Origin: Charina bottae | Lineage: Eukaryota; Chordata; Lepidosauria; Squamata; Charinaidae | Direction of reading: 5' to 3' | DNA: 64,000 bases | Assembly: GCA_023362775.1 (NCBI GenBank) | Contig: JALMGJ010000003.1 | Location: forward strand, 1 to 64,000 | Part shown: one piece after another, positions 9,067 through 56,448 of the stretch | Numbering within the stretch: the stretch's first letter is position 1 | How the letters are laid out: each line of letters begins with the position of its first letter | Made by a program: the position numbers and the translations under genes | The notes under the pieces: generated by a model | The model's input: only the letters and a program-made list of their open reading frames with translations | Databases searched by the model: none | What the model was told of the DNA's origin: nothing

Positions 9067-9105
9067 TGGCTTGAATCATGTCAACTGGATTTCTATTTTC
9101 TCAGT

Positions 9106-9142
9106 GGAAACGTTTCACTCCTTATCCAAGGAGCTTCTTCAG
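9106..9142 (-). ncRNA. Hammerhead-like core, dispersed PLE copy, left arm
   Basis: Minus strand: CTGAAGA, stem CTCCTT/AAGGAG, then GAAACG. Same motif as in the array spacers. Confidence 0.5.
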
Positions 9143-9180
9143 TCTGAGTAAAGTTAGTAAGGTAATCCTTAAATATGTTT

Positions 9181-10755: not shown

Positions 10756-10792
10756 CTGAAGAAGCTCTTTGGATAAGGAGCGAAACGTTTCT
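10756..10792 (+). ncRNA. Hammerhead-like core, dispersed PLE copy, right arm
   Basis: CTGAAGA, then a stem with AAGGAGC, then GAAACG. Here the base before GAAA is C and pairs with the G that opens the stem, giving a better closed stem II than in the array copies. Confidence 0.55.
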
Positions 10793-10879
10793 ACTGAGAA
10801 AATAGAAATCCAGTTGACATGATTCAAGCCACAGACTGTTCCACCTGGATGACTGAGAACCTTCATCGACATAACATAG

Positions 10880-17948: not shown

Positions 17949-17990
17949 CTGTGGCTTGAATCATGTCAACTGGATTTCTATTTTCTTAGT

Positions 17991-18027
17991 GGAAACGTTT
18001 CACTCCTTATCCAAGGAGCTTCTTCAG
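17991..18027 (-). ncRNA. Hammerhead-ribozyme-like core, spacer after unit 1
   Basis: Minus strand: CTGAAGA, six-pair stem CTCCTT-GGAT-AAGGAG, then T-GAAACG. It lies in the outer 3' spacer of the left arm. Confidence 0.5.
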
Positions 18028-18128
18028 TCTGAGTAAAGTTAGTAAGGGAATCCTTAAATATGTTTCTAGGCTGGCTGTGTGACCTTGCACCTGGGGCTAG
18101 GTCATGGTTATTTTTGAGATGTTTGTTT

Positions 18129-20678
18129 CTAAGTCCCTTTATCATCTAAAGGAGGATCGTTAAGATTACCCTGCTGCTGTTGAGCTTGTGAAATGGTCTT
18201 AATCTTCCTAGGCACAGAAGACAAAGCAGGAAGGAAGACAGGGGAAAGGTTATGCCTGAGGCCCCCACCTCTATTCAAGGAAGGATTTTCCAAGTTGGCA
18301 TGAATGGATTCCTTGACCCCTCTCTCAAACCACCTATCTTCTCTGTCTAAAATGTGAACATTAATGTCCTCAAATGAGTGTCCTTTTTCCTTTAGATGAA
18401 GATAAACTGCTGACTCTGGTCCTGTGGTGTTACTTCTCCTGTGTTGGGCCATCCTCCTGTACAAAGGTTGTTTGGTTTCTCCAATGTAGAGTTCAGAGCA
18501 CTCCTCACTGCACTGGATTGCATACACTACATTGCTTTCCTTGTGTTTTGGAGTTTGATCTTTGGGGTGTACAAGCCTCTGTCTCAGTGTGTTGGTGGGT
18601 TTGAAATATACAGGTATGTGGTGTTTGCCAAATATCCGTTTGATCTTTTCAGACACGCCAGCCATGTAAGGAATGACCAGGTTCTTCCGTTTACTCTGAG
18701 TCTCAGCCCTATCTGTCGCTGTTTTAGGTCTGGTAGACTTAGATTTGGTGAAGGCCCAATTTGGATATCCACAGGCCTGCAGAGCTGTTCTCAGATGCTG
18801 CTTTTCATTCTTTTTGGAATCCATGGAGGTGGGGATGGTTTCTGCTCTGTGTGACAATGTCCTGATGACTCCTAGTTTGTGCTGCAGTGGATGGTGGGAG
18901 TCAAACATCAGGTATTGATCTGTGTGTGTGGGTTTCCTGTAGATCCCTATTTCTAGCTTGCCACCGGTCCCAATGAGGACTTCACAGTCTAGGAATGCCA
19001 GTCTGTTGTCCTTGGTGTCTTCTCTGGTGAACCTAATGTTGGCATCTATAGTGTTTATATGGTCCGTGAAGGCCTGTACTTCCTGGGCCTTGATTTTGAC
19101 CCAGGTGTCATCCACATACCTAAACCAGTGGGTGGGCACCGTTCCCTGGAATGTGTTGAGTGCTTTCTTCTCCACTTCTTCCATGTATAAATTGGCCACA
19201 ATGGGTGACACAGGAGAACCCATGGCACAGCCGTGTTTTTGTCTGTAAAAGTCACCTCTGTATGTGAAATAAGTGGTGTTAAGACACAGGTCCAGAAGAT
19301 GGCAGATCTGGTTTGGGTTGAGATGGCTTCTCCTTTCCAGGGTGCTGTCCTCTTCTAGTCTCTTCCTGACAGCGGATAGAGCATGAGTGGTGGGGATGCT
19401 GGTGAAAAGGGAGGACACATCAAAGGAGACCATAGTTTCATCTGTATCCAGTTTCAGGATCTTTGCTTTGGAAACAAATTCTTCCGAATTATGGATGTGG
19501 TGTTCAGAGTGTCCAACTAGAGGTGCTAGTATGGTAGAGAGGTGTTTGGCAATGTTGTATGTTACCGAATTGATGCTGCTGACTATGGGTCGGAGGGGTG
19601 TTCCTTCCTTGTGGATCTTAGGAAGTCCGTAGATGCAGGGGATGGCTTCTCCAGGATACAGACAGTGGTAGGTAATCCTATCGATGGAGCCATCATGTTC
19701 CAATTGTTTCAAACTGTCTATTGCCTTTTTCTTGTAATTGTTGGTGGGGTCTCTTTTCAGTTTTTCATATGTATGGTGATCCTCCAAAAGTGAGGTAATT
19801 TTATTGTGGTAGTCTGCAGTGTTTAGAACCACTGTACATCTTCCTTTGTCAGCAGGTAAAATGGTGATGGTTTCATCTTTGCTGAGGGCTGTCAGGGCTC
19901 TCCTCTCTTGGACGGTAAGGTTGGGGGGAGGAGGTTGAGCACTGGACAGAGCTGCAGATATTTTAAGCCGGAGTTGTTCTGCTTCTTCAAAAGGTAGGTG
20001 GTTGTTGTGGATGGCAGATTCTGTGGCTGTAATGAGCTCCACAACCGGAACTTGCTTGGGAGTGATGGCAAAATTAAGACCTTTGGCTAGGACATCTCTC
20101 TCTGGTTGGGTAAGTTCTCTGTCTGAGAGATTTTTCACCCACATGTTCTTTTTGTCCTCTGTGGTCCTGTTGTTGTTGTTCCTCCCAGCGGTTTCTCCAG
20201 TTCCTTGTTTCTGCTTGCTGCGAGAAAGAAGAATGTCAAATTTCTTAGTTTGCCTCTCCTTTGTCTTGTGATGCTGGGCCAGCTGTACTTTATTGCCAAG
20301 CTGAATAACTCTATCCAGGATTGGGTCAGGAAGGGTGGCTGTGAGTTCCTGGTGAAGGTTTTCAAAATTGTATTGCAGGGCATCAATGGTGAAGTGGACT
20401 TGCCTTATTCTTTCATTTAGAAGATGTCTTTGTGCCTGCTGCAAGATCTGATCTGCTCTGTGACCCTTAACTGTAGATTGCAGGCGTAGGCTTGTCGGGA
20501 TGAGTCTCTGTTGTCTGCATCTGAGGTTAAAACGTAGGTGGTTTCTATAGTCTGCCACCTTTCTTGCTGTCTTCTCGAATTTCCTTACCAACTTCAGGGT
20601 TTCATCCCCAAAATGTATGGCAATATGTCTATGAAGGTTCTCAGTCATCCAGGTGGAACAGTCTGTGGCTTGAATCAT
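18129..20678 (-). CDS. PLE unit 1 polyprotein: reverse transcriptase + GIY-YIG endonuclease, intact
   Basis: 849 codons, complete. The N-terminal ~200 residues are basic and helical with an NNNN-type linker. The DKG motif (ILPADKGRC, about 275-281) marks the PLE-specific region before the RT fingers. RT blocks follow: YGLPKIHKEGTPLRPIVSS (~349), SFDVSSLFTSIP (~417), GCAMGSPVSP (~482) and catalytic RYVDDTWV (~519). After a connector comes the GIY-YIG domain (VYAIQC ~717, LYIGET ~729, and R/E residues in RWFERGVKES). PLE proteins nick the target and copy their RNA in the nucleus (family knowledge). The start is the first ATG after an in-frame TAA in the spacer. Unit-specific changes include Cys for Arg in TYHCLYPG, Arg for Ser in ANIRFTRE and Val in LSPVFLP, so it is the most diverged full unit. 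Confidence 0.95.
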   Translation of the reverse strand: MIQATDCSTWMTENLHRHIAIHFGDETLKLVRKFEKTARKVADYRNHLRFNLRCRQQRLIPTSLRLQSTVKGHRADQILQQAQRHLLNERIRQVHFTIDALQYNFENLHQELTATLPDPILDRVIQLGNKVQLAQHHKTKERQTKKFDILLSRSKQKQGTGETAGRNNNNRTTEDKKNMWVKNLSDRELTQPERDVLAKGLNFAITPKQVPVVELITATESAIHNNHLPFEEAEQLRLKISAALSSAQPPPPNLTVQERRALTALSKDETITILPADKGRCTVVLNTADYHNKITSLLEDHHTYEKLKRDPTNNYKKKAIDSLKQLEHDGSIDRITYHCLYPGEAIPCIYGLPKIHKEGTPLRPIVSSINSVTYNIAKHLSTILAPLVGHSEHHIHNSEEFVSKAKILKLDTDETMVSFDVSSLFTSIPTTHALSAVRKRLEEDSTLERRSHLNPNQICHLLDLCLNTTYFTYRGDFYRQKHGCAMGSPVSPIVANLYMEEVEKKALNTFQGTVPTHWFRYVDDTWVKIKAQEVQAFTDHINTIDANIRFTREDTKDNRLAFLDCEVLIGTGGKLEIGIYRKPTHTDQYLMFDSHHPLQHKLGVIRTLSHRAETIPTSMDSKKNEKQHLRTALQACGYPNWAFTKSKSTRPKTATDRAETQSKRKNLVIPYMAGVSEKIKRIFGKHHIPVYFKPTNTLRQRLVHPKDQTPKHKESNVVYAIQCSEECSELYIGETKQPLYRRMAQHRRSNTTGPESAVYLHLKEKGHSFEDINVHILDREDRWFERGVKESIHANLENPSLNRGGGLRHNLSPVFLPALSSVPRKIKTISQAQQQQGNLNDPPLDDKGT

Positions 20679-20704
20679 GTCAACTGGATTTCTATTTTCT
20701 TAGT

Positions 20705-20741
20705 GGAAACGTTTCACTCCTTATCCAAGGAGCTTCTTCAG
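20705..20741 (-). ncRNA. Hammerhead-like core in the spacer between units 1 and 2
   Basis: Same motif as at 17991-18027, exactly 2714 bp away. It lies 27 bp upstream of the unit 1 ATG. Confidence 0.55.
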
Positions 20742-20842
20742 TCTGAGTAAAGTTAGTAAGGGAATCCTTAAATATGTTTCTAGGCTGGCTGTGTGACCTT
20801 GCACCTGGGGCTAGGTCATGGTTATTTTTGAGATGTTTGTTT

Positions 20843-22496
20843 CTAAGTCCCTTTATCATCTAAAGGAGGATCGTTAAGATTACCCTGCTGCTGTTGAGCT
20901 TGTGAAATGGTCTTAATCTTCCTAGGCACAGAAGACAAAGCAGGAAGGAAGATAGGGGAAAGGTTATGCCTGAGGCCCCCACCTCTATTCAAGGAAGGAT
21001 TTTCCAAGTTGGCATGAATGGATTCCTTGACCCCTCTCTCAAACCACCTATCTTCTCTGTCTAAAATGTGAACATTAATGTCCTCAAATGAGTGTCCTTT
21101 TTCCTTTAGATGAAGATAAACTGCTGACTCTGGTCCTGTGGTGTTACTTCTCCTGTGTTGGGCCATCCTCCTGTACAAAGGTTGTTTGGTTTCTCCAATG
21201 TAGAGTTCAGAGCACTCCTCACTGCACTGGATTGCATACACTACATTGCTTTCCTTGTGTTTTGGAGTTTGATCTTTGGGGTGTACAAGCCTCTGTCTCA
21301 GTGTGTTGGTGGGTTTGAAATATACAGGTATGTGGTGTTTGCCAAATATCCGTTTGATCTTTTCAGACACGCCAGCCATGTAAGGAATGACCAGGTTCTT
21401 CCGTTTACTCTGAGTCTCAGCCCTATCTGTCGCTGTTTTAGGTCTGGTAGACTTAGATTTGGTGAAGGCCCAATTTGGATATCCACAGGCCTGCAGAGCT
21501 GTTCTCAGATGCTGCTTTTCATTCTTTTTGGAATCCATGGAGGTGGGGATGGTTTCTGCTCTGTGTGACAATGTCCTGATGACTCCTAGTTTGTGCTGCA
21601 GTGGATGGTGGGAGTCAAACATCAGGTATTGATCTGTGTGTGTGGGTTTCCTGTAGATCCCTATTTCTAGCTTGCCACCGGTCCCAATGAGGACTTCACA
21701 GTCTAGGAATGCCAGTCTGTTGTCCTTGGTGTCTTCTCTGGTGAAGCTAATGTTGGCATCTATAGTGTTTATATGGTCCGTGAAGGCCTGTACTTCCTGG
21801 GCCTTGATTTTGACCCAGGTGTCATCCACATACCTAAACCAGTGGGTGGGCACCGTTCCCTGGAATGTGTTGAGTGCTTTCTTCTCCACTTCTTCCATGT
21901 ATAAATTGGCCACAATGGGTGACACAGGAGAACCCATGGCACAGCCGTGTTTTTCTCTGTAAAAGTCACCTCTGTATGTGAAATAAGTGGTGTTAAGACA
22001 CAGGTCCAGAAGATGGCAGATCTGGTTTGGGTTGAGATGGCTTCTCCTTTCCAGGGTGCTGTCCTCTTCTAGTCTCTTCCTGACAGCGGATAGAGCATGA
22101 GTGGTGGGGATGCTGGTGAAAAGGGAGGACACATCAAAGGAGACCATAGTTTCATCTGTATCCAGTTTCAGGATCTTTGCTTTGGAAACAAATTCTTCCG
22201 AATTATGGATGTGGTGTTCAGAGTGTCCAACTAGAGGTGCTAGTATGGTAGAGAGGTGTTTGGCAATGTTGTATGTTACCGAATTGATGCTGCTGACTAT
22301 GGGTCGGAGGGGTGTTCCTTCCTTGTGGATCTTAGGAAGTCCGTAGATGCAGGGGATGGCTTCTCCAGGATACAGACGGTGGTAGGTAATCCTATCGATG
22401 GAGCCATCATGTTCCAATTGTTTCAAACTGTCTATTGCCTTTTTCTTGTAATTGTTGGTGGGGTCTCTTTTCAGTTTTTCATATGTATGGTGATCC
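20843..22496 (-). CDS. PLE unit 2, 5'-truncated (RT from the thumb-side of DKG through GIY-YIG)
   Basis: In frame from the junction at 22496 to the same stop as the other units, about 551 codons. It lacks the N-terminal ~300 residues including the DKG motif, but keeps all catalytic RT blocks with RYVDD and the full GIY-YIG domain. A Glu for Gln change (FYREKHG) is unique to this unit. The truncation point is the arm junction, so the loss was part of the insertion event and not later decay (inference). It has no natural start codon context; translation is unlikely. Confidence 0.9.
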
Positions 22497-22768
22497 TTCA
22501 TCTAAAGGAAAAAGGACACTCATTTGAGGACATTAATGTTCACATTTTAGACAGAGAAGATAGGTGGTTTGAGAGAGGGGTCAAGGAATCCATTCATGCC
22601 AACTTGGAAAATCCTTCCTTGAATAGAGGTGGGGGCCTCAGGCATAACCTTTCCCCTATCTTCCTTCCTGCTTTGTCTTCTGTGCCTAGGAAGATTAAGA
22701 CCATTTCACAAGCTCAACAGCAGCAGGGTAATCTTAACGATCCTCCTTTAGATGATAAAGGGACTTAG
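22497..22768 (+). CDS. PLE unit 3, 5'-truncated to the last ~89 codons
   Basis: Starts inside the GIY-YIG domain at HLKEKGHSFEDINV and runs to the normal stop. Only the domain's C-terminal half (WFERGVKES and NRGGGLRHNLSP) remains. It opens the plus-strand arm. The frame happens to stay open leftward into unit 2 antisense, but that is not a real gene. Its downstream spacer is complete and leads into unit 4. Confidence 0.9.
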
Positions 22769-22869
22769 AAACAAACATCTCAAAAATAACCATGACCTAG
22801 CCCCAGGTGCAAGGTCACACAGCCAGCCTAGAAACATATTTAAGGATTCCCTTACTAACTTTACTCAGA

Positions 22870-22906
22870 CTGAAGAAGCTCCTTGGATAAGGAGTGAAAC
22901 GTTTCC
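22870..22906 (+). ncRNA. Hammerhead-like core upstream of unit 4
   Basis: CTGAAGA (22870-22876), stem CTCCTT/AAGGAG with GGAT loop, T, GAAACG, then TTTCC. It ends 27 bp before the unit 4 ATG. Confidence 0.55.
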
Positions 22907-22932
22907 ACTAAGAAAATAGAAATCCAGTTGAC

Positions 22933-25482
22933 ATGATTCAAGCCACAGACTGTTCCACCTGGATGACTGAGAACCTTCATAGACATATTGCCATACATTT
23001 TGGGGATGAAACCCTGAAGTTGGTAAGGAAATTCGAGAAGACAGCAAGAAAGGTGGCAGACTATAGAAACCACCTACGTTTTAACCTCAGATGCAGACAA
23101 CAGAGACTCATCCCGACAAGCCTACGCCTGCAATCTACAGTTAAGGGTCACAGAGCAGATCAGATCTTGCAGCAGGCACAAAGACATCTTCTAAATGAAA
23201 GAATAAGGCAAGTCCACTTCACCATTGATGCCCTGCAATACAATTTTGAAAACCTTCACCAGGAACTCACAGCCACCCTTCCTGACCCAATCCTGGATAG
23301 AGTTATTCAGCTTGGCAATAAAGTACAGCTGGCCCAGCATCACAAGACAAAGGAGAGGCAAACTAAGAAATTTGACATTCTTCTTTCTCGCAGCAAGCAG
23401 AAACAAGGAACTGGAGAAACCGCTGGGAGGAACAACAACAACAGGACCACAGAGGACAAAAAGAACATGTGGGTGAAAAATCTCTCAGACAGAGAACTTA
23501 CCCAACCAGAGAGAGATGTCCTAGCCAAAGGTCTTAATTTTGCCATCACTCCCAAGCAAGTTCCGGTTGTGGAGCTCATTACAGCCACAGAATCTGCCAT
23601 CCACAACAACCACCTACCTTTTGAAGAAGCAGAACAACTCCGGCTTAAAATATCTGCAGCTCTGTCCAGTGCTCAACCTCCTCCCCCCAACCTTACCGTC
23701 CAAGAGAGGAGAGCCCTGACAGCCCTCAGCAAAGATGAAACCATCACCATTTTACCTGCTGACAAAGGAAGATGTACAGTGGTTCTAAACACTGCAGACT
23801 ACCACAATAAAATTACCTCACTTTTGGAGGATCACCATACATATGAAAAACTGAAAAGAGACCCCACCAACAATTACAAGAAAAAGGCAATAGACAGTTT
23901 GAAACAATTGGAACATGATGGCTCCATCGATAGGATTACCTACCACCGTCTGTATCCTGGAGAAGCCATCCCCTGCATCTACGGACTTCCTAAGATCCAC
24001 AAGGAAGGAACACCCCTCCGACCCATAGTCAGCAGCATCAATTCGGTAACATACAACATTGCCAAACACCTCTCTACCATACTAGCACCTCTAGTTGGAC
24101 ACTCTGAACACCACATCCATAATTCGGAAGAATTTGTTTCCAAAGCAAAGATCCTGAAACTGGATACAGATGAAACTATGGTCTCCTTTGATGTGTCCTC
24201 CCTTTTCACCAGCATCCCCACCACTCATGCTCTATCCGCTGTCAGGAAGAGACTAGAAGAGGACAGCACCCTGGAAAGGAGAAGCCATCTCAACCCAAAC
24301 CAGATCTGCCATCTTCTGGACCTGTGTCTTAACACCACTTATTTCACATACAGAGGTGACTTTTACAGACAAAAACACGGCTGTGCCATGGGTTCTCCTG
24401 TGTCACCCATTGTGGCCAATTTATACATGGAAGAAGTGGAGAAGAAAGCACTCAACACATTCCAGGGAACGGTGCCCACCCACTGGTTTAGGTATGTGGA
24501 TGACACCTGGGTCAAAATCAAGGCCCAGGAAGTACAGGCCTTCACGGACCATATAAACACTATAGATGCCAACATTAGCTTCACCAGAGAAGACACCAAG
24601 GACAACAGACTGGCATTCCTAGACTGTGAAGTCCTCATTGGGACCGGTGGCAAGCTAGAAATAGGGATCTACAGGAAACCCACACACACAGATCAATACC
24701 TGATGTTTGACTCCCACCATCCACTGCAGCACAAACTAGGAGTCATCAGGACATTGTCACACAGAGCAGAAACCATCCCCACCTCCATGGATTCCAAAAA
24801 GAATGAAAAGCAGCATCTGAGAACAGCTCTGCAGGCCTGTGGATATCCAAATTGGGCCTTCACCAAATCTAAGTCTACCAGACCTAAAACAGCGACAGAT
24901 AGGGCTGAGACTCAGAGTAAACGGAAGAACCTGGTCATTCCTTACATGGCTGGCGTGTCTGAAAAGATCAAACGGATATTTGGCAAACACCACATACCTG
25001 TATATTTCAAACCCACCAACACACTGAGACAGAGGCTTGTACACCCCAAAGATCAAACTCCAAAACACAAGGAAAGCAATGTAGTGTGTGCAATCCAGTG
25101 CAGTGAGGAGTGCTCTGAACTCTACATTGGAGAAACCAAACAACCTTTGTACAGGAGGATGGCCCAACACAGGAGAAGTAACACCACAGGACCAGAGTCA
25201 GCAGTTTATCTTCATCTAAAGGAAAAAGGACACTCATTTGAGGACATTAATGTTCACATTTTAGACAGAGAAGATAGGTGGTTTGAGAGAGGGGTCAAGG
25301 AATCCATTCATGCCAACTTGGAAAATCCTTCCTTGAATAGAGGTGGGGGCCTCAGGCATAACCTTTCCCCTATCTTCCTTCCTGCTTTGTCTTCTGTGCC
25401 TAGGAAGATTAAGACCATTTCACAAGCTCAACAGCAGCAGGGTAATCTTAACGATCCTCCTTTAGATGATAAAGGGACTTAG
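22933..25482 (+). CDS. PLE unit 4 polyprotein (RT + GIY-YIG), intact
   Basis: Full 849 codons with every motif described for unit 1. DKG is near 23761, YVDD near 24492 and LYIGET near 25120. It carries Cys for Tyr in VVCAIQC, a change in the first conserved strand of the GIY-YIG domain that it shares only with unit 5. That shared variant suggests these neighbours descend from one another (inference). The ATG is preceded by the spacer with the hammerhead-like core and an in-frame TAA seven codons upstream. Confidence 0.95.
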   Translation: MIQATDCSTWMTENLHRHIAIHFGDETLKLVRKFEKTARKVADYRNHLRFNLRCRQQRLIPTSLRLQSTVKGHRADQILQQAQRHLLNERIRQVHFTIDALQYNFENLHQELTATLPDPILDRVIQLGNKVQLAQHHKTKERQTKKFDILLSRSKQKQGTGETAGRNNNNRTTEDKKNMWVKNLSDRELTQPERDVLAKGLNFAITPKQVPVVELITATESAIHNNHLPFEEAEQLRLKISAALSSAQPPPPNLTVQERRALTALSKDETITILPADKGRCTVVLNTADYHNKITSLLEDHHTYEKLKRDPTNNYKKKAIDSLKQLEHDGSIDRITYHRLYPGEAIPCIYGLPKIHKEGTPLRPIVSSINSVTYNIAKHLSTILAPLVGHSEHHIHNSEEFVSKAKILKLDTDETMVSFDVSSLFTSIPTTHALSAVRKRLEEDSTLERRSHLNPNQICHLLDLCLNTTYFTYRGDFYRQKHGCAMGSPVSPIVANLYMEEVEKKALNTFQGTVPTHWFRYVDDTWVKIKAQEVQAFTDHINTIDANISFTREDTKDNRLAFLDCEVLIGTGGKLEIGIYRKPTHTDQYLMFDSHHPLQHKLGVIRTLSHRAETIPTSMDSKKNEKQHLRTALQACGYPNWAFTKSKSTRPKTATDRAETQSKRKNLVIPYMAGVSEKIKRIFGKHHIPVYFKPTNTLRQRLVHPKDQTPKHKESNVVCAIQCSEECSELYIGETKQPLYRRMAQHRRSNTTGPESAVYLHLKEKGHSFEDINVHILDREDRWFERGVKESIHANLENPSLNRGGGLRHNLSPIFLPALSSVPRKIKTISQAQQQQGNLNDPPLDDKGT

Positions 25483-25583
25483 AAACAAACATCTCAAAAA
25501 TAACCATGACCTAGCCCCAGGTGCAAGGTCACACAGCCAGCCTAGAAACATATTTAAGGATTCCCTTACTAACTTTACTCAGA

Positions 25584-25620
25584 CTGAAGAAGCTCCTTGG
25601 ATAAGGAGTGAAACGTTTCC
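25584..25620 (+). ncRNA. Hammerhead-like core upstream of unit 5
   Basis: CTGAAGA 25584-25590; stem 25593-25598 with 25603-25608; GAAA 25610-25613; CG follows. Stem III would be only two pairs (AC/GT) in a monomer. One extra base separates CTGAAGA from stem II, so catalytic activity is uncertain. Confidence 0.55.
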
Positions 25621-25646
25621 ACTAAGAAAATAGAAATCCAGTTGAC

Positions 25647-28196
25647 ATGATTCAAGCCACAGACTGTTCCACCTGGATGACTGAGAACCTTCATAGACAT
25701 ATTGCCATACATTTTGGGGATGAAACCCTGAAGTTGGTAAGGAAATTCGAGAAGACAGCAAGAAAGGTGGCAGACTATAGAAACCACCTACGTTTTAACC
25801 TCAGATGCAGACAACAGAGACTCATCCCGACAAGCCTACGCCTGCAATCTACAGTTAAGGGTCACAGAGCAGATCAGATCTTGCAGCAGGCACAAAGACA
25901 TCTTCTAAATGAAAGAATAAGGCAAGTCCACTTCACCATTGATGCCCTGCAATACAATTTTGAAAACCTTCACCAGGAACTCACAGCCACCCTTCCTGAC
26001 CCAATCCTGGATAGAGTTATTCAGCTTGGCAATAAAGTACAGCTGGCCCAGCATCACAAGACAAAGGAGAGGCAAACTAAGAAATTTGACATTCTTCTTT
26101 CTCGCAGCAAGCAGAAACAAGGAACTGGAGAAACCGCTGGGAGGAACAACAACAACAGGACCACAGAGGACAAAAAGAACATGTGAGTGAAAAATCTCTC
26201 AGACAGAGAACTTACCCAACCAGAGAGAGATGTCCTAGCCAAAGGTCTTAATTTTGCCATCACTCCCAAGCAAGTTCCGGTTGTGGAGCTCATTACAGCC
26301 ACAGAATCTGCCATCCACAACAACCACCTACCTTTTGAAGAAGCAGAACAACTCCGGCTTAAAATATCTGCAGCTCTGTCCAGTGCTCAACCTCCTCCCC
26401 CCAACCTTACCGTCCAAGAGAGGAGAGCCCTGACAGCCCTCAGCAAAGATGAAACCATCACCATTTTACCTGCTGACAAAGGAAGATGTACAGTGGTTCT
26501 AAACACTGCAGACTACCACAATAAAATTACCTCACTTTTGGAGGATCACCATACATATGAAAAACTGAAAAGAGACCCCACCAACAATTACAAGAAAAAG
26601 GCAATAGACAGTTTGAAACAATTGGAACATGATGGCTCCATCGATAGGATTACCTACCACCGTCTGTATCCTGGAGAAGCCATCCCCTGCATCTACGGAC
26701 TTCCTAAGATCCACAAGGAAGGAACACCCCTCCGACCCATAGTCAGCAGCATCAATTCGGTAACATACAACATTGCCAAACACCTCTCTACCATACTAGC
26801 ACCTCTAGTTGGACACTCTGAACACCACATCCATAATTCGGAAGAATTTGTTTCCAAAGCAAAGATCCTGAAACTGGATACAGATGAAACTATGGTCTCC
26901 TTTGATGTGTCCTCCCTTTTCACCAGCATCCCCACCACTCATGCTCTATCCGCTGTCAGGAAGAGACTAGAAGAGGACAGCACCCTGGAAAGGAGAAGCC
27001 ATCTCAACCCAAACCAGATCTGCCATCTTCTGGACCTGTGTCTTAACACCACTTATTTCACATACAGAGGTGACTTTTACAGACAAAAACACGGCTGTGC
27101 CATGGGTTCTCCTGTGTCACCCATTGTGGCCAATTTATACATGGAAGAAGTGGAGAAGAAAGCACTCAACACATTCCAGGGAACGGTGCCCACCCACTGG
27201 TTTAGGTATGTGGATGACACCTGGGTCAAAATCAAGGCCCAGGAAGTACAGGCCTTCACGGACCATATAAACACTATAGATGCCAACATTAGCTTCACCA
27301 GAGAAGACACCAAGGACAACAGACTGGCATTCCTAGACTGTGAAGTCCTCATTGGGACCGGTGGCAAGCTAGAAATAGGGATCTACAGGAAACCCACACA
27401 CACAGATCAATACCTGATGTTTGACTCCCACCATCCACTGCAGCACAAACTAGGAGTCATCAGGACATTGTCACACAGAGCAGAAACCATCCCCACCTCC
27501 ATGGATTCCAAAAAGAATGAAAAGCAGCATCTGAGAACAGCTCTGCAGGCCTGTGGATATCCAAATTGGGCCTTCACCAAATCTAAGTCTACCAGACCTA
27601 AAACAGCGACAGATAGGGCTGAGACTCAGAGTAAACGGAAGAACCTGGTCATTCCTTACATGGCTGGCGTGTCTGAAAAGATCAAACGGATATTTGGCAA
27701 ACACCACATACCTGTATATTTCAAACCCACCAACACACTGAGACAGAGGCTTGTACACCCCAAAGATCAAACTCCAAAACACAAGGAAAGCAATGTAGTG
27801 TGTGCAATCCAGTGCAGTGAGGAGTGCTCTGAACTCTACATTGGAGAAACCAAACAACCTTTGTACAGGAGGATGGCCCAACACAGGAGAAGTAACACCA
27901 CAGGACCAGAGTCAGCAGTTTATCTTCATCTAAAGGAAAAAGGACACTCATTTGAGGACATTAATGTTCACATTTTAGACAGAGAAGATAGGTGGTTTGA
28001 GAGAGGGATCAAGGAATCCATTCATGCCAACTTGGAAAATCCTTCCTTGAATAGAGGTGGGGGCCTCAGGCATAACCTTTCCCCTATCTTCCTTCCTGCT
28101 TTGTCTTCTGTGCCTAGGAAGATTAAGACCATTTCACAAGCTCAACAGCAGCAGGGTAATCTTAACGATCCTCCTTTAGATGATAAAGGGACTTAG
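25647..28196 (+). pseudogene. PLE unit 5, one nonsense codon in an otherwise intact frame
   Basis: The frame is identical in length to its sisters but has TGA at 26184-26186, where the others have TGG (Trp ~180, just before VKNLSDREL). Everything downstream (DKG, RT with YVDD, GIY-YIG) stays open. The single G-to-A change is the only frame-breaking lesion seen in any full unit. Like unit 4 it has VVCAIQC, and it alone has Ile in RGIKES. A truncated product from the downstream part would lack the N-terminal region. Confidence 0.93.
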
Positions 28197-28297
28197 AAAC
28201 AAACATCTCAAAAATAACCATGACCTAGCCCCAGGTGCAAGGTCACACAGCCAGCCTAGAAACATATTTAAGGATTCCCTTACTAACTTTACTCAGA

Positions 28298-28334
28298 CTG
28301 AAGAAGCTCCTTGGATAAGGAGTGAAACGTTTCC
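28298..28334 (+). ncRNA. Hammerhead-like core upstream of unit 6
   Basis: Same sequence and spacing as the other spacers. Confidence 0.55.
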
Positions 28335-28360
28335 ACTAAGAAAATAGAAATCCAGTTGAC

Positions 28361-30910
28361 ATGATTCAAGCCACAGACTGTTCCACCTGGATGACTGAGA
28401 ACCTTCATAGACATATTGCCATACATTTTGGGGATGAAACCCTGAAGTTGGTAAGGAAATTCGAGAAGACAGCAAGAAAGGTGGCAGACTATAGAAACCA
28501 CCTACGTTTTAACCTCAGATGCAGACAACAGAGACTCATCCCGACAAGCCTACGCCTGCAATCTACAGTTAAGGGTCACAGAGCAGATCAGATCTTGCAG
28601 CAGGCACAAAGACATCTTCTAAATGAAAGAATAAGGCAAGTCCACTTCACCATTGATGCCCTGCAATACAATTTTGAAAACCTTCACCAGGAACTCACAG
28701 CCACCCTTCCTGACCCAATCCTGGATAGAGTTATTCAGCTTGGCAATAAAGTACAGCTGGCCCAGCATCACAAGACAAAGGAGAGGCAAACTAAGAAATT
28801 TGACATTCTTCTTTCTCGCAGCAAGCAGAAACAAGGAACTGGAGAAACCGCTGGGAGGAACAACAACAACAGGACCACAGAGGACAAAAAGAACATGTGG
28901 GTGAAAAATCTCTCAGACAGAGAACTTACCCAACCAGAGAGAGATGTCCTAGCCAAAGGTCTTAATTTTGCCATCACTCCCAAGCAAGTTCCGGTTGTGG
29001 AGCTCATTACAGCCACAGAATCTGCCATCCACAACAACCACCTACCTTTTGAAGAAGCAGAACAACTCCGGCTTAAAATATCTGCAGCTCTGTCCAGTGC
29101 TCAACCTCCTCCCCCCAACCTTACCGTCCAAGAGAGGAGAGCCCTGACAGCCCTCAGCAAAGATGAAACCATCACCATTTTACCTGCTGACAAAGGAAGA
29201 TGTACAGTGGTTCTAAACACTGCAGACTACCACAATAAAATTACCTCACTTTTGGAGGATCACCATACATATGAAAAACTGAAAAGAGACCCCACCAACA
29301 ATTACAAGAAAAAGGCAATAGACAGTTTGAAACAATTGGAACATGATGGCTCCATCGATAGGATTACCTACCACCGTCTGTATCCTGGAGAAGCCATCCC
29401 CTGCATCTACGGACTTCCTAAGATCCACAAGGAAGGAACACCCCTCCGACCCATAGTCAGCAGCATCAATTCGGTAACATACAACATTGCCAAACACCTC
29501 TCTACCATACTAGCACCTCTAGTTGGACACTCTGAACACCACATCCATAATTCGGAAGAATTTGTTTCCAAAGCAAAGATCCTGAAACTGGATACAGATG
29601 AAACTATGGTCTCCTTTGATGTGTCCTCCCTTTTCACCAGCATCCCCACCACTCATGCTCTATCCGCTGTCAGGAAGAGACTAGAAGAGGACAGCACCCT
29701 GGAAAGGAGAAGCCATCTCAACCCAAACCAGATCTGCCATCTTCTGGACCTGTGTCTTAACACCACTTATTTCACATACAGAGGTGACTTTTACAGACAA
29801 AAACACGGCTGTGCCATGGGTTCTCCTGTGTCACCCATTGTGGCCAATTTATACATGGAAGAAGTGGAGAAGAAAGCACTCAACACATTCCAGGGAACGG
29901 TGCCCACCCACTGGTTTAGGTATGTGGATGACACCTGGGTCAAAATCAAGGCCCAGGAAGTACAGGCCTTCACGGACCATATAAACACTATAGATGCCAA
30001 CATTAGCTTCACCAGAGAAGACACCAAGGACAACAGACTGGCATTCCTAGACTGTGAAGTCCTCATTGGGACCGGTGGCAAGCTAGAAATAGGGATCTAC
30101 AGGAAACCCACACACACAGATCAATACCTGATGTTTGACTCCCACCATCCACTGCAGCACAAACTAGGAGTCATCAGGACATTGTCACACAGAGCAGAAA
30201 CCATCCCCACCTCCATGGATTCCAAAAAGAATGAAAAGCAGCATCTGAGAACAGCTCTGCAGGCCTGTGGATATCCAAATTGGGCCTTCACCAAATCTAA
30301 GTCTACCAGACCTAAAACAGCGACAGATAGGGCTGAGACTCAGAGTAAACGGAAGAACCTGGTCATTCCTTACATGGCTGGCGTGTCTGAAAAGATCAAA
30401 CGGATATTTGGCAAACACCACATACCTGTATATTTCAAACCCACCAACACACTGAGACAGAGGCTTGTACACCCCAAAGATCAAACTCCAAAACACAAGG
30501 AAAGCAATGTAGTGTATGCAATCCAGTGCAGTGAGGAGTGCTCTGAACTCTACATTGGAGAAACCAAACAACCTTTGTACAGGAGGATGGCCCAACACAG
30601 GAGAAGTAACACCACAGGACCAGAGTCAGCAGTTTATCTTCATCTAAAGGAAAAAGGACACTCATTTGAGGACATTAATGTTCACATTTTAGACAGAGAA
30701 GATAGGTGGTTTGAGAGAGGGGTCAAGGAATCCATTCATGCCAACTTGGAAAATCCTTCCTTGAATAGAGGTGGGGGCCTCAGGCATAACCTTTCCCCTA
30801 TCTTCCTTCCTGCTTTGTCTTCTGTGCCTAGGAAGATTAAGACCATTTCACAAGCTCAACAGCAGCAGGGTAATCTTAACGATCCTCCTTTAGATGATAA
30901 AGGGACTTAG
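28361..30910 (+). CDS. PLE unit 6 polyprotein (RT + GIY-YIG), intact
   Basis: Full 849 codons with no amino-acid change from the array majority that I could see, so it represents the consensus protein. RYVDDTWV and LYIGETKQ are intact and VVYAIQC has the usual Tyr. The start lies 27 bp after the hammerhead-like core. Together with units 1, 4, 7 and 8 it makes five apparently translatable copies in one locus. Confidence 0.95.
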   Translation: MIQATDCSTWMTENLHRHIAIHFGDETLKLVRKFEKTARKVADYRNHLRFNLRCRQQRLIPTSLRLQSTVKGHRADQILQQAQRHLLNERIRQVHFTIDALQYNFENLHQELTATLPDPILDRVIQLGNKVQLAQHHKTKERQTKKFDILLSRSKQKQGTGETAGRNNNNRTTEDKKNMWVKNLSDRELTQPERDVLAKGLNFAITPKQVPVVELITATESAIHNNHLPFEEAEQLRLKISAALSSAQPPPPNLTVQERRALTALSKDETITILPADKGRCTVVLNTADYHNKITSLLEDHHTYEKLKRDPTNNYKKKAIDSLKQLEHDGSIDRITYHRLYPGEAIPCIYGLPKIHKEGTPLRPIVSSINSVTYNIAKHLSTILAPLVGHSEHHIHNSEEFVSKAKILKLDTDETMVSFDVSSLFTSIPTTHALSAVRKRLEEDSTLERRSHLNPNQICHLLDLCLNTTYFTYRGDFYRQKHGCAMGSPVSPIVANLYMEEVEKKALNTFQGTVPTHWFRYVDDTWVKIKAQEVQAFTDHINTIDANISFTREDTKDNRLAFLDCEVLIGTGGKLEIGIYRKPTHTDQYLMFDSHHPLQHKLGVIRTLSHRAETIPTSMDSKKNEKQHLRTALQACGYPNWAFTKSKSTRPKTATDRAETQSKRKNLVIPYMAGVSEKIKRIFGKHHIPVYFKPTNTLRQRLVHPKDQTPKHKESNVVYAIQCSEECSELYIGETKQPLYRRMAQHRRSNTTGPESAVYLHLKEKGHSFEDINVHILDREDRWFERGVKESIHANLENPSLNRGGGLRHNLSPIFLPALSSVPRKIKTISQAQQQQGNLNDPPLDDKGT

Positions 30911-31011
30911 AAACAAACATCTCAAAAATAACCATGACCTAGCCCCAGGTGCAAGGTCACACAGCCAGCCTAGAAACATATTTAAGGATTCCCTTACTAA
31001 CTTTACTCAGA

Positions 31012-31048
31012 CTGAAGAAGCTCCTTGGATAAGGAGTGAAACGTTTCC
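31012..31048 (+). ncRNA. Hammerhead-like core upstream of unit 7
   Basis: Same sequence and spacing as the other spacers. Confidence 0.55.
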
Positions 31049-31074
31049 ACTAAGAAAATAGAAATCCAGTTGAC

Positions 31075-33624
31075 ATGATTCAAGCCACAGACTGTTCCAC
31101 CTGGATGACTGAGAACCTTCATAGACATATTGCCATACATTTTGGGGATGAAACCCTGAAGTTGGTAAGGAAATTCGAGAAGACAGCAAGAAAGGTGGCA
31201 GACTATAGAAACCACCTACGTTTTAACCTCAGATGCAGACAACAGAGACTCATCCCGACAAGCCTACGCCTGCAATCTACAGTTAAGGGTCACAGAGCAG
31301 ATCAGATCTTGCAGCAGGCACAAAGACATCTTCTAAATGAAAGAATAAGGCAAGTCCACTTCACCATTGATGCCCTGCAATACAATTTTGAAAACCTTCA
31401 CCAGGAACTCACAGCCACCCTTCCTGACCCAATCCTGGATAGAGTTATTCAGCTTGGCAATAAAGTACAGCTGGCCCAGCATCACAAGACAAAGGAGAGG
31501 CAAACTAAGAAATTTGACATTCTTCTTTCTCGCAGCAAGCAGAAACAAGGAACTGGAGAAACCGCTGGGAGGAACAACAACAACAGGACCACAGAGGACA
31601 AAAAGAACATGTGGGTGAAAAATCTCTCAGACAGAGAACTTACCCAACCAGAGAGAGATGTCCTAGCCAAAGGTCTTAATTTTGCCATCACTCCCAAGCA
31701 AGTTCCGGTTGTGGAGCTCATTACAGCCACAGAATCTGCCATCCACAACAACCACCTACCTTTTGAAGAAGCAGAACAACTCCGGCTTAAAATATCTGCA
31801 GCTCTGTCCAGTGCTCAACCTCCTCCCCCCAACCTTACCATCCAAGAGAGGAGAGCCCTGACAGCCCTCAGCAAAGATGAAACCATCACCATTTTACCTG
31901 CTGACAAAGGAAGATGTACAGTGGTTCTAAACACTGCAGACTACCACAATAAAATTACCTCACTTTTGGAGGATCACCATACATATGAAAAACTGAAAAG
32001 AGACCCCACCAACAATTACAAGAAAAAGGCAATAGACAGTTTGAAACAATTGGAACATGATGGCTCCATCGATAGGATTACCTACCACCGTCTGTATCCT
32101 GGAGAAGCCATCCCCTGCATCTACGGACTTCCTAAGATCCACAAGGAAGGAACACCCCTCCGACCCATAGTCAGCAGCATCAATTCGGTAACATACAACA
32201 TTGCCAAACACCTCTCTACCATACTAGCACCTCTAGTTGGACACTCTGAACACCACATCCATAATTCGGAAGAATTTGTTTCCAAAGCAAAGATCCTGAA
32301 ACTGGATACAGATGAAACTATGGTCTCCTTTGATGTGTCCTCCCTTTTCACCAGCATCCCCACCACTCATGCTCTATCCGCTGTCAGGAAGAGACTAGAA
32401 GAGGACAGCACCCTGGAAAGGAGAAGCCATCTCAACCCAAACCAGATCTGCCATCTTCTGGACCTGTGTCTTAACACCACTTATTTCACATACAGAGGTG
32501 ACTTTTACAGACAAAAACACGGCTGTGCCATGGGTTCTCCTGTGTCACCCATTGTGGCCAATTTATACATGGAAGAAGTGGAGAAGAAAGCACTCAACAC
32601 ATTCCAGGGAACGGTGCCCACCCACTGGTTTAGGTATGTGGATGACACCTGGGTCAAAATCAAGGCCCAGGAAGTACAGGCCTTCACGGACCATATAAAC
32701 ACTATAGATGCCAACATTAGCTTCACCAGAGAAGACACCAAGGACAACAGACTGGCATTCCTAGACTGTGAAGTCCTCATTGGGACCGGTGGCAAGCTAG
32801 AAATAGGGATCTACAGGAAACCCACACACACAGATCAATACCTGATGTTTGACTCCCACCATCCACTGCAGCACAAACTAGGAGTCATCAGGACATTGTC
32901 ACACAGAGCAGAAACCATCCCCACCTCCATGGATTCCAAAAAGAATGAAAAGCAGCATCTGAGAACAGCTCTGCAGGCCTGTGGATATCCAAATTGGGCC
33001 TTCACCAAATCTAAGTCTACCAGACCTAAAACAGCGACAGATAGGGCTGAGACTCAGAGTAAACGGAAGAACCTGGTCATTCCTTACATGGCTGGCGTGT
33101 CTGAAAAGATCAAACGGATATTTGGCAAACACCACATACCTGTATATTTCAAACCCACCAACACACTGAGACAGAGGCTTGTACACCCCAAAGATCAAAC
33201 TCCAAAACACAAGGAAAGCAATGTAGTGTATGCAATCCAGTGCAGTGAGGAGTGCTCTGAACTCTACATTGGAGAAACCAAACAACCTTTGTACAGGAGG
33301 ATGGCCCAACACAGGAGAAGTAACACCACAGGACCAGAGTCAGCAGTTTATCTTCATCTAAAGGAAAAAGGACACTCATTTGAGGACATTAATGTTCACA
33401 TTTTAGACAGAGAAGATAGGTGGTTTGAGAGAGGGGTCAAGGAATCCATTCATGCCAACTTGGAAAATCCTTCCTTGAATAGAGGTGGGGGCCTCAGGCA
33501 TAACCTTTCCCCTATCTTCCTTCCTGCTTTGTCTTCTGTGCCTAGGAAGATTAAGACCATTTCACAAGCTCAACAGCAGCAGGGTAATCTTAACGATCCT
33601 CCTTTAGATGATAAAGGGACTTAG
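31075..33624 (+). CDS. PLE unit 7 polyprotein (RT + GIY-YIG), intact
   Basis: Full 849 codons. It differs from unit 6 by a conservative Val-to-Ile change (NLTIQERRAL, near 31840). All catalytic motifs are present. Neighbouring units on both sides are in the same orientation at exactly one period. Confidence 0.95.
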   Translation: MIQATDCSTWMTENLHRHIAIHFGDETLKLVRKFEKTARKVADYRNHLRFNLRCRQQRLIPTSLRLQSTVKGHRADQILQQAQRHLLNERIRQVHFTIDALQYNFENLHQELTATLPDPILDRVIQLGNKVQLAQHHKTKERQTKKFDILLSRSKQKQGTGETAGRNNNNRTTEDKKNMWVKNLSDRELTQPERDVLAKGLNFAITPKQVPVVELITATESAIHNNHLPFEEAEQLRLKISAALSSAQPPPPNLTIQERRALTALSKDETITILPADKGRCTVVLNTADYHNKITSLLEDHHTYEKLKRDPTNNYKKKAIDSLKQLEHDGSIDRITYHRLYPGEAIPCIYGLPKIHKEGTPLRPIVSSINSVTYNIAKHLSTILAPLVGHSEHHIHNSEEFVSKAKILKLDTDETMVSFDVSSLFTSIPTTHALSAVRKRLEEDSTLERRSHLNPNQICHLLDLCLNTTYFTYRGDFYRQKHGCAMGSPVSPIVANLYMEEVEKKALNTFQGTVPTHWFRYVDDTWVKIKAQEVQAFTDHINTIDANISFTREDTKDNRLAFLDCEVLIGTGGKLEIGIYRKPTHTDQYLMFDSHHPLQHKLGVIRTLSHRAETIPTSMDSKKNEKQHLRTALQACGYPNWAFTKSKSTRPKTATDRAETQSKRKNLVIPYMAGVSEKIKRIFGKHHIPVYFKPTNTLRQRLVHPKDQTPKHKESNVVYAIQCSEECSELYIGETKQPLYRRMAQHRRSNTTGPESAVYLHLKEKGHSFEDINVHILDREDRWFERGVKESIHANLENPSLNRGGGLRHNLSPIFLPALSSVPRKIKTISQAQQQQGNLNDPPLDDKGT

Positions 33625-33725
33625 AAACAAACATCTCAAAAATAACCATGACCTAGCCCCAGGTGCAAGGTCACACAGCCAGCCTAGAAACATATTTAAG
33701 GATTCCCTTACTAACTTTACTCAGA

Positions 33726-33762
33726 CTGAAGAAGCTCCTTGGATAAGGAGTGAAACGTTTCC
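33726..33762 (+). ncRNA. Hammerhead-like core upstream of unit 8
   Basis: Same sequence and spacing as the other spacers. Confidence 0.55.
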
Positions 33763-33788
33763 ACTAAGAAAATAGAAATCCAGTTGAC

Positions 33789-36338
33789 ATGATTCAAGCC
33801 ACAGACTGTTCCACCTGGATGACTGAGAACCTTCATAGACATATTGCCATACATTTTGGGGATGAAACCCTGAAGTTGGTAAGGAAATTCGAGAAGACAG
33901 CAAGAAAGGTGGCAGACTATAGAAACCACCTACGTTTTAACCTCAGATGCAGACAACAGAGACTCATCCCGACAAGCCTACGCCTGCAATCTACAGTTAA
34001 GGGTCACAGAGCAGATCAGATCTTGCAGCAGGCACAAAGACATCTTCTAAATGAAAGAATAAGGCAAGTCCACTTCACCATTGATGCCCTGCAATACAAT
34101 TTTGAAAACCTTCACCAGGAACTCACAGCCACCCTTCCTGACCCAATCCTGGATAGAGTTATTCAGCTTGGCAATAAAGTACAGCTGGCCCAGCATCACA
34201 AGACAAAGGAGAGGCAAACTAAGAAATTTGACATTCTTCTTTCTCGCAGCAAGCAGAAACAAGGAACTGGAGAAACCGCTGGGAGGAACAACAACAACAG
34301 GACCACAGAGGACAAAAAGAACATGTGGGTGAAAAATCTCTCAGACAGAGAACTTACCCAACCAGAGAGAGATGTCCTAGCCAAAGGTCTTAATTTTGCC
34401 ATCACTCCCAAGCAAGTTCCGGTTGTGGAGCTCATTACAGCCACAGAATCTGCCATCCACAACAACCACCTACCTTTTGAAGAAGCAGAACAACTCCGGC
34501 TTAAAATATCTGCAGCTCTGTCCAGTGCTCAACCTCCTCCCCCCAACCTTACCGTCCAAGAGAGGAGAGCCCTGACAGCCCTCAGCAAAGATGAAACCAT
34601 CACCATTTTACCTGCTGACAAAGGAAGATGTACAGTGGTTCTAAACACTGCAGACTACCACAATAAAATTACCTCACTTTTGGAGGATCACCATACATAT
34701 GAAAAACTGAAAAGAGACCCCACCAACAATTACAAGAAAAAGGCAATAGACAGTTTGAAACAATTGGAACATGATGGCTCCATCGATAGGATTACCTACC
34801 ACCATCTGTATCCTGGAGAAGCCATCCCCTGCATCTACGGACTTCCTAAGATCCACAAGGAAGGAACACCCCTCCGACCCATAGTCAGCAGCATCAATTC
34901 GGTAACATACAACATTGCCAAACACCTCTCTACCATACTAGCACCTCTAGTTGGACACTCTGAACACCACATCCATAATTCGGAAGAATTTGTTTCCAAA
35001 GCAAAGATCCTGAAACTGGATACAGATGAAACTATGGTCTCCTTTGATGTGTCCTCCCTTTTCACCAGCATCCCCACCACTCATGCTCTATCCGCTGTCA
35101 GGAAGAGACTAGAAGAGGACAGCACCCTGGAAAGGAGAAGCCATCTCAACCCAAACCAGATCTGCCATCTTCTGGACCTGTGTCTTAACACCACTTATTT
35201 CACATACAGAGGTGACTTTTACAGACAAAAACACGGCTGTGCCATGGGTTCTCCTGTGTCACCCATTGTGGCCAATTTATACATGGAAGAAGTGGAGAAG
35301 AAAGCACTCAACACATTCCAGGGAACGGTGCCCACCCACTGGTTTAGGTATGTGGATGACACCTGGGTCAAAATCAAGGCCCAGGAAGTACAGGCCTTCA
35401 CGGACCATATAAACACTATAGATGCCAACATTAGCTTCACCAGAGAAGACACCAAGGACAACAGACTGGCATTCCTAGACTGTGAAGTCCTCATTGGGAC
35501 CGGTGGCAAGCTAGAAATAGGGATCTACAGGAAACCCACACACACAGATCAATACCTGATGTTTGACTCCCACCATCCACTGCAGCACAAACTAGGAGTC
35601 ATCAGGACATTGTCACACAGAGCAGAAACCATCCCCACCTCCATGGATTCCAAAAAGAATGAAAAGCAGCATCTGAGAACAGCTCTGCAGGCCTGTGGAT
35701 ATCCAAATTGGGCCTTCACCAAATCTAAGTCTACCAGACCTAAAACAGCGACAGATAGGGCTGAGACTCAGAGTAAACGGAAGAACCTGGTCATTCCTTA
35801 CATGGCTGGCGTGTCTGAAAAGATCAAACGGATATTTGGCAAACACCACATACCTGTATATTTCAAACCCACCAACACACTGAGACAGAGGCTTGTACAC
35901 CCCAAAGATCAAACTCCAAAACACAAGGAAAGCAATGTAGTGTATGCAATCCAGTGCAGTGAGGAGTGCTCTGAACTCTACATTGGAGAAACCAAACAAC
36001 CTTTGTACAGGAGGATGGCCCAACACAGGAGAAGTAACACCACAGGACCAGAGTCAGCAGTTTATCTTCATCTAAAGGAAAAAGGACACTCATTTGAGGA
36101 CATTAATGTTCACATTTTAGACAGAGAAGATAGGTGGTTTGAGAGAGGGGTCAAGGAATCCATTCATGCCAACTTGGAAAATCCTTCCTTGAATAGAGGT
36201 GGGGGCCTCAGGCATAACCTTTCCCCTATCTTCCTTCCTGCTTTGTCTTCTGTGCCTAGGAAGATTAAGACCATTTCACAAGCTCAACAGCAGCAGGGTA
36301 ATCTTAACGATCCTCCTTTAGATGATAAAGGGACTTAG
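33789..36338 (+). CDS. PLE unit 8 polyprotein (RT + GIY-YIG), intact, outermost right unit
   Basis: Full 849 codons with one visible difference from unit 6, His for Arg in TYHHLYPGEA (near 34803). After the stop, a complete spacer with hammerhead-like core follows. Then come 49 bp of the next unit's start, ending at the family's 3' terminus (CATAGACA). Carrying a second copy of the unit's beginning at its 3' end is what PLEs with pseudo-LTRs show. Confidence 0.95.
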   Translation: MIQATDCSTWMTENLHRHIAIHFGDETLKLVRKFEKTARKVADYRNHLRFNLRCRQQRLIPTSLRLQSTVKGHRADQILQQAQRHLLNERIRQVHFTIDALQYNFENLHQELTATLPDPILDRVIQLGNKVQLAQHHKTKERQTKKFDILLSRSKQKQGTGETAGRNNNNRTTEDKKNMWVKNLSDRELTQPERDVLAKGLNFAITPKQVPVVELITATESAIHNNHLPFEEAEQLRLKISAALSSAQPPPPNLTVQERRALTALSKDETITILPADKGRCTVVLNTADYHNKITSLLEDHHTYEKLKRDPTNNYKKKAIDSLKQLEHDGSIDRITYHHLYPGEAIPCIYGLPKIHKEGTPLRPIVSSINSVTYNIAKHLSTILAPLVGHSEHHIHNSEEFVSKAKILKLDTDETMVSFDVSSLFTSIPTTHALSAVRKRLEEDSTLERRSHLNPNQICHLLDLCLNTTYFTYRGDFYRQKHGCAMGSPVSPIVANLYMEEVEKKALNTFQGTVPTHWFRYVDDTWVKIKAQEVQAFTDHINTIDANISFTREDTKDNRLAFLDCEVLIGTGGKLEIGIYRKPTHTDQYLMFDSHHPLQHKLGVIRTLSHRAETIPTSMDSKKNEKQHLRTALQACGYPNWAFTKSKSTRPKTATDRAETQSKRKNLVIPYMAGVSEKIKRIFGKHHIPVYFKPTNTLRQRLVHPKDQTPKHKESNVVYAIQCSEECSELYIGETKQPLYRRMAQHRRSNTTGPESAVYLHLKEKGHSFEDINVHILDREDRWFERGVKESIHANLENPSLNRGGGLRHNLSPIFLPALSSVPRKIKTISQAQQQQGNLNDPPLDDKGT

Positions 36339-36439
36339 AAACAAACATCTCAAAAATAACCATGACCTAGCCCCAGGTGCAAGGTCACACAGCCAGCCTA
36401 GAAACATATTTAAGGATTCCCTTACTAACTTTACTCAGA

Positions 36440-36476
36440 CTGAAGAAGCTCCTTGGATAAGGAGTGAAACGTTTCC
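36440..36476 (+). ncRNA. Hammerhead-like core in the terminal 3' spacer
   Basis: Same sequence as in the internal spacers; it lies in the outer right end of the array. Confidence 0.5.
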
Positions 36477-36552
36477 ACTAAGAAAATAGAAATCCAGTTG
36501 ACATGATTCAAGCCACAGACTGTTCCACCTGGATGACTGAGAACCTTCATAG

Positions 36553-56405: not shown

Positions 56406-56448
56406 ATGTTCACATTCTGTGGGGTTCAGACTGTTTGATATTCTAAGG

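Follow-up and report, generated by a model that had tools for sequence, protein, structure and literature searches.

Among the closest described systems is PAc, the Poseidon element of Anolis carolinensis, which belongs to the Penelope/Poseidon clade and is, according to its authors, the first Penelope-like element active in vitro (PMC11167929). Both DNA strands of the target are cut and extended in that system, and reverse transcription begins at two adjacent internal start sites, for which the top and bottom strands showed no difference (PMC11167929). The interval between these sites corresponds to the optional 'tail' of 30-40 bp in natural copies (PMC11167929). PAc prefers an AT-rich target, its insertion in vitro is independent of the hammerhead, and its authors propose multi-unit transcripts (PMC11167929).

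A second point of reference is provided by Adineta, for which the excerpted account treats as typical a copy that has pLTRs in both direct and inverted orientation, a target-site duplication and, at one of its ends, a tail of 31 bp (PMC3846280). The head-to-head form is put down there to self-priming on antisense RNA because the junctions are palindromic, and the authors, in the same excerpts, also allow for the use of sense transcripts (PMC3846280). The telomeric endonuclease-deficient Penelope-like elements of rotifers, and Terminons, are described in the excerpted report as having no canonical endonuclease and as being attached at telomeres, in an array layout unlike one target-duplicating insertion (PMC6431247).

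The route by which Penelope-like elements insert, and the cause of their tandem and inverted copies, is a standing question on which the locus described here bears. It lies in a window of 64,000 nucleotides, the whole stretch of DNA that was analysed. We read the array at this locus as a known type of Penelope-like insertion that is unusually long, and we make no claim that it is the first; in the open-licence literature, which defined the scope of our search and leaves subscription papers outside it, we found no account of a target-duplicating insert as long as this one.

Layout and protein of the two-armed insert

Positions 17949-36555 appear to constitute one insert of 18.6 kb, in which Penelope-type units form two opposed arms that point away from each other and are flanked by matching target-site repeats (Table 1). 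The insert equals 6.86 unit lengths and includes six complete 849-codon frames plus two partial units; the plus arm is made up of a partial unit of 437 nt, five complete units and a 53-nt tail. Each unit of 2714 bp comprises the 849-codon ORF with its stop and a 164-bp spacer. Self-comparison of the window and a column-by-column comparison of the units both give a period of exactly 2714 bp with zero indels. BLAST matches between units are at least 99.1% identical when flank bases are counted, and at least 99.7% identical for matches over 2 kb. On the basis of the protein, the inter-unit identity and the flanking direct repeats, the array repeat is real and far beyond chance.

Table 1. Coordinates of the insert, its units and related features in the window. 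Flanking repeats are listed under the role we assign to them.
Feature	Positions	Strand	Details
Left target-site duplication	17934..17948		ACAGCTGGAATCAGA; 14/15 match with 36553-36567
Right target-site duplication	36553..36567		ACAGCTGGCATCAGA; first three bases common to element end
Minus-strand arm	17949..22497	-	1.68 units (one full, one truncated at the 5' end); coordinate 16 (site A) at left outer end, 896 at inner end
Plus-strand arm	22496..36555 (start 22496/22498)	+	5.18 units; coordinate 53 (site B) at right outer end
Array junction	22496..22500		Exact 2-bp overlap CT; 5 bp with one mismatch
Unit -0	18129..20678	-	Intact 849-aa ORF; R339C, S549R, I814V versus unit +2
Unit --1	20843..22497	-	5'-truncated; open frame listed at 552 aa, start just beyond junction
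Unit +0	22933..25482	+	Intact 849-aa ORF; Y719C, the endonuclease GIY tyrosine
Unit +1	25647..28196	+	849-codon frame with nonsense W180*; also Y719C, V788I
Unit +2	28361..30910	+	Intact 849-aa ORF; no private change; reference unit
Unit +3	31075..33624	+	Intact 849-aa ORF; V256I
Unit +4	33789..36338	+	Intact 849-aa ORF; R339H; RVT_1 at aa 355-544, GIY-YIG at aa 717-772
Hammerhead-like motif	36434..36482	+	In 164-bp spacer of last unit; CTGAAGA, 7-bp stem, GAAAC, possible stem I strands
Older two-armed relative	9063..10873		Minus arm from 9063 (coordinate 16-17), plus arm to 10873 (coordinate 55)
Solo pLTR-like copy	54176..54575	+	Unit coordinates 2325 to about 15 (site A)
Solo pLTR-like copy	55966..56406	-	Unit coordinates 2329 to 56 (site B)

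The original prediction described this locus as an eight-unit tandem array at 17949..36552, and those ends are correct to within 3 bp. Its account of five intact 849-aa ORFs and a sixth frame with one nonsense codon is borne out, with the single stop at codon 180. The exact 2714-bp spacing without indels holds within each arm, and the handful of substitutions proves to be nine base differences. However, 6.86 unit lengths in two head-to-head arms were found, and a count of eight is obtained only if partial units are included and strand is disregarded. That description lacked the two most telling features of the locus, the inversion and the target-site duplication. The strand switch at 22496-22500, together with the flanking duplication, led us to drop the simple tandem reading for this locus, and the suggestion that the array marks the birth of a satellite was likewise set aside: a single target-site duplication bounds the array, the inversion lies inside it, and the locus offers that suggestion no support. 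Inversion of part of a pre-existing array was rejected, since the left end would then have had to match both a 3' end class and the target duplication by chance.

A domain search with the unit protein identified RVT_1 at aa 355-544 (E 6e-11) and GIY-YIG at aa 717-772 (23.1 bits versus a cut-off of 22.6), and both the YVDD and YIG motifs are present. The array thus has the single ORF with reverse transcriptase and C-terminal GIY-YIG that is expected of an endonuclease-bearing Penelope-like element. It also has the tandem or partial-tandem units that give pseudo-LTRs (2714-bp units, and solo copies from 2325 and 2329), as well as an inverted head-to-head part, a target-site duplication and the optional tail of 30-40 bp, here 37 nt. 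The best 20 protein matches are vertebrate Penelope-like proteins (fish, frogs) with 59-70% identity to the unit protein; those that are named come from fish or Xenopus, and each carries RVT_1. No clade name is attached to the homologues listed. These domains and homologues, with the comparison of the units, support the predicted Penelope-like identity and recent activity.

Searches of other kinds returned no solved structure at E 0.01, nothing in a viral-contig scan and no tRNA with ARAGORN. Eight sub-threshold Rfam matches to RFPL3-AS1_2 within the ORF were taken as chance. Elsewhere in the window, a decayed plus-strand frame at 49536-49871 ends YNIQYKDYNSHYEGQTRRRLAECIHEQ, a motif that may be the end of a second Penelope-type endonuclease.

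Ends, junctions, relatives and flanks

When unit coordinate 1 is defined as the A of the ATG, the outer ends of the array fall at coordinates 16 and 53, and both are element 3' ends, 37 nt apart. The six 3' ends found in the window are divided between class A (coordinates 15-17, n=3) and class B (53-56, n=3), and both two-armed copies (2/2) have site A on one side and site B on the other. These end classes resemble the two in-vitro reverse transcription start sites of PAc (PMC11167929). The commonest PAc start lies 111-118 bp into the ORF, and the ends of the array family lie at +15 to +17 and +53 to +56, positions that are compared by description.

The repeats that flank the insert are alike at 14 of 15 positions, with one base differing, and match at 11 of 12 positions outside the element end. 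As a control, random position pairs were drawn from the window outside the array with seven offsets allowed, and 20 of 399,070 pairs reached 11 or 12 matches. We therefore interpret the flanking repeats as a target-site duplication that encloses the whole insert. At 48% over 50 bp, the target is not AT-rich.

In the array, the junction falls at unit coordinate 896 of the minus arm and at 2278 of the plus arm. The corresponding junction of the older copy, near 10288, has arms that break near 1248 and 2008 and a 2-bp overlap CC. No palindrome is present at either junction because the arms break at different unit positions.

The dispersed relatives that had been predicted near 9, 54 and 56 kb are all present. 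In the 9-kb copy, about 300 bp of unmatched sequence (9191-9490) replaces about 550 bp of the minus arm, and the plus arm lacks 195 bp. For the 54-kb copy, BLAST reaches coordinate 22, with mismatches. No exact direct repeat of at least 6 bp was found at the ends of the 9-kb or 54-kb copies, and a 7-bp direct repeat lies near the ends of the 56-kb copy. The dispersed copies differ from the array unit by 1.4% to 6%, which indicates that the family has been active for some time and that the array looks youngest.

The solo copies at 54176 and 56406 start at near-identical unit positions, 2325 and 2329, and these positions may correspond to a transcription start within the terminal part of the ORF. 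Also observed was a 239-bp inverted pair (14820-15058 and 56449-56687; 95% identical) that contains a 31-bp tandem repeat, one copy of which pair is 43 bp away from the 56-kb solo pLTR.

All eight array spacers carry, immediately 5' of the ATG, a hammerhead-like motif in which CTGAAGA and GAAAC enclose a 7-bp stem closed by a GGAT loop, and the motif also occurs at all four ends of the dispersed copies. Judged by the hammerhead consensus, CTGAAGA...GAAAC is presumably a hammerhead core, and the presumed core and stem II are both present in every array spacer. The presumed stem I has a C.A mismatch in the eight array spacers and the 56-kb copy, pairs fully at the site-A end of the 9-kb copy and in the 54-kb copy, and is without one base at the other 9-kb end. 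An Rfam scan of the array gave no hammerhead match up to E 1, an outcome that could be anticipated for the minimal hammerhead form, which is said, in the excerpted source, to lack helix III (PMC7761336).

Regarding the host, the right flank at 37168-37743 is a gypsy integrase tail with a chromodomain, whose best named matches are from Rhineura, Anolis and Crotalus. Five squamates, including two Micrurus, are among the 120 matches listed for this fragment, at about 45-54% identity, with frogs, fish and fungi next among the matches listed. A reptile host, as originally predicted, is accordingly plausible on the strength of three best named matches that are squamates, but it is not proven. On the left, a decayed minus-strand frame at about 17500-17948 may correspond to a retroviral envelope transmembrane region. 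Direct repeats at 16836-17041 and 39243-39448, one on each side of the array and 92% identical, are perhaps copies of one LTR-type element.

Differences between the units

Comparison of the units gave 18 variable columns, nine of which were retained (540, 766, 1015, 1016, 1438, 1647, 2156, 2362 and 2440). Eight columns at unit coordinates 17-29 were excluded as left flank and column 895 as junction microhomology. Eight of the nine differences are private to a single unit, and the ninth, at 2156, is common to neighbours +0 and +1. Sites 1015 and 1016 together make up a single CpG. All nine differences alter the protein, and so nothing points to purifying selection after insertion.

Several of the changes fall on conserved residues, as judged from an alignment of 59 of the 120 homologues listed. 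The GIY tyrosine affected at site 2156 is Tyr in 52 of the 59 aligned homologues (gap in five, His in one, Ser in one), and its replacement probably leaves two of the six units without a functional endonuclease. Codon 339, which is Cys in unit -0 and His in unit +4, encodes Arg or Lys in 49 of the 59. Units +2 and +3 retain the common residue at the conserved variable sites.

At site 1647, unit -0 has G (Arg549), whereas unit --1 has C (Ser549) and the five plus units are like --1. The older 9-kb copy also has G, and codon 549 among the 59 homologues is Lys in 50, Asn in four, Gln in two, and Arg, Ser and Glu in one each. Given the base in the 9-kb copy and the predominance of Lys or Arg (51 of 59), G seems to be the ancestral base, kept by -0, with the newer base carried by --1 and the five plus units. 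We estimate a coincidence at any of the four covered sites at about 2% (20 substitutions in about 1180 compared bases). On the evidence of this one site, the template probably consisted of units that were not all the same, and a single circular RNA is thereby disfavoured.

With site 1647 left out, private derived differences number four in the 14.1 kb of the plus arm versus three in the 4.5 kb of the minus arm. The greater density in the minus arm is not significant (P 0.23).

How the insert may have formed

We judge, with a probability only slightly above one half, that an endonuclease-bearing Penelope-like element inserted here recently, giving a copy of unusual length in the canonical two-armed layout, by priming from both strands on multi-unit RNA. 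The element protein would cut both target strands about 15 bp apart, and each exposed 3' end would prime reverse transcription of sense element RNA, starting at one of two adjacent internal sites (site A for one arm, site B for the opposite arm). The template would be a read-through RNA of several units, of which 1.68 would be copied on one side and up to 5.18 on the opposite side. A 2-bp microhomology could then serve to join the cDNA ends, and gap filling would yield the target-site duplication.

The array has opposed arms, outer ends of classes A and B, a target-site duplication, an asymmetric microhomology junction and an exact period. A model in which both cut strands prime on sense RNA is consistent with the two end classes, with the duplication and with the asymmetry and microhomology of the junctions; the seamless unit joints argue for a continuous multi-unit or circular template, and the difference at 1647 between -0 and --1 fits a template of non-identical units. 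From these features we infer both-strand priming in vivo, a multi-unit RNA and a single event. The predicted 'multimeric replication product' thus stands in modified form, as a two-armed insertion bounded by one target-site duplication and probably templated by multi-unit RNA. Several points count against this reading, namely the non-AT-rich target, the lack of repeats of at least 6 bp at the 9-kb and 54-kb ends, and the one differing base among the 15 duplicated. In addition, PAc showed no start-site difference between top and bottom strands, which leaves a fixed division of sites A and B between strands without support in vitro. That a single event built the whole 18.6-kb insert, with both strands copying long non-identical multi-unit RNAs (about 4.5 and 14 kb), is a narrower proposition that we advance tentatively, as not quite probable.

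In a rival history, which we regard as rather unlikely, a smaller two-armed insertion came first, and unequal exchange or replication slippage between direct repeats later enlarged its plus arm to five units. The sharing of site 2156 by neighbours +0 and +1 is explained equally well by later unequal exchange, and could reflect either the template or such exchange. In simulations of gradual growth from one to four plus units, exactly one shared site of five was obtained in 28-34% of runs, and in about 10% of runs when growth came as an early burst. The plus arm also has fewer private derived differences per kb, at the non-significant level given above. However, only one of the nine differences is found in more than one unit, and the minus arm, with just 1.68 units, is itself heterogeneous at 1647. 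As the growth simulation is compatible with the data, 'one event' should be understood as a reading only. An assembler might instead have created the unit number or the inversion; unit +2 lacks a private marker, and its copy number therefore rests on read length. This is highly improbable, given that, of the six complete units, five are marked by a variant confined to that unit or to it and one neighbour, that matching target-site duplications flank the insert, and that an older copy shows the same two-armed layout.

Two further alternatives concern the template and the primer. The indel-free, seamless joints and the hammerhead-like motif in every array spacer could be accounted for if reverse transcriptase rolled around one circular RNA released by a hammerhead-like ribozyme, and circular RNA intermediates are described for retrozymes in the excerpted source (PMC7761336). 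We nevertheless find this very unlikely, because one circle cannot yield units that differ by inherited variants (1647, 2156); for the same reason, the 'rolling' replication of the original prediction fits poorly if it is taken to proceed on one circular RNA. Moreover, unprocessed RNA is the main substrate for PAc insertion in vitro, which does not need hammerhead cleavage (PMC11167929), and the array has no Rfam hammerhead match. Head-to-head arms might also arise by self-priming (fold-back) on an antisense template, as proposed, in the excerpted account, for palindromic head-to-head copies in Adineta vaga (PMC3846280). Such a process should leave a palindrome at the junction, the two arms reversing at one and the same unit position, whereas the arms of the array and of the 9-kb copy break at the unlike positions noted above, with 2-bp overlaps, and fold-back is hence extremely improbable here.

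The array shares with PAc a reverse transcriptase and GIY-YIG in one ORF and tandem units. Near the ORF start, where PAc has its hammerhead motif, the array has the hammerhead-like one. It differs in having its hammerhead-like core upstream of the ATG, a target that is not AT-rich and two long arms in one insert. In LINE-1 twin priming, opposite-strand primers give rise to a head-to-head microhomology junction within one target-site duplication, and the second primer starts inside the RNA. The array is like the resulting inversions in its junction and single duplication, but both of its arms begin at element 3' end classes. As in Pen2a_Av and its relatives from Adineta vaga, to judge from the excerpted description, direct and inverted copies lie head to head within one target-site duplication, and of their 3' ends one bears a short tail (PMC3846280). 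The inverted part of Pen2a_Av is, in those excerpts, a pLTR of about 180-220 bp and the element has one ORF (PMC3846280), whereas in the array the inverted part spans 4.5 kb and includes an intact ORF, the direct part has five units, and the junction is not palindromic.

Because the locus has few mutations, the start sites can be read from it directly, as can the junction and the target duplication. The locus favours both-strand priming on sense RNA over fold-back self-priming, it ties start sites used in vitro to the ends of natural elements, and several intact protein frames can sit within one insert. If the mismatch in the putative stem I weakens self-cleavage, long templates might be favoured. 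If the single-event reading is true, arrays would give rise directly to arrays, and the 'tail' would be a trace of which side used which start site.
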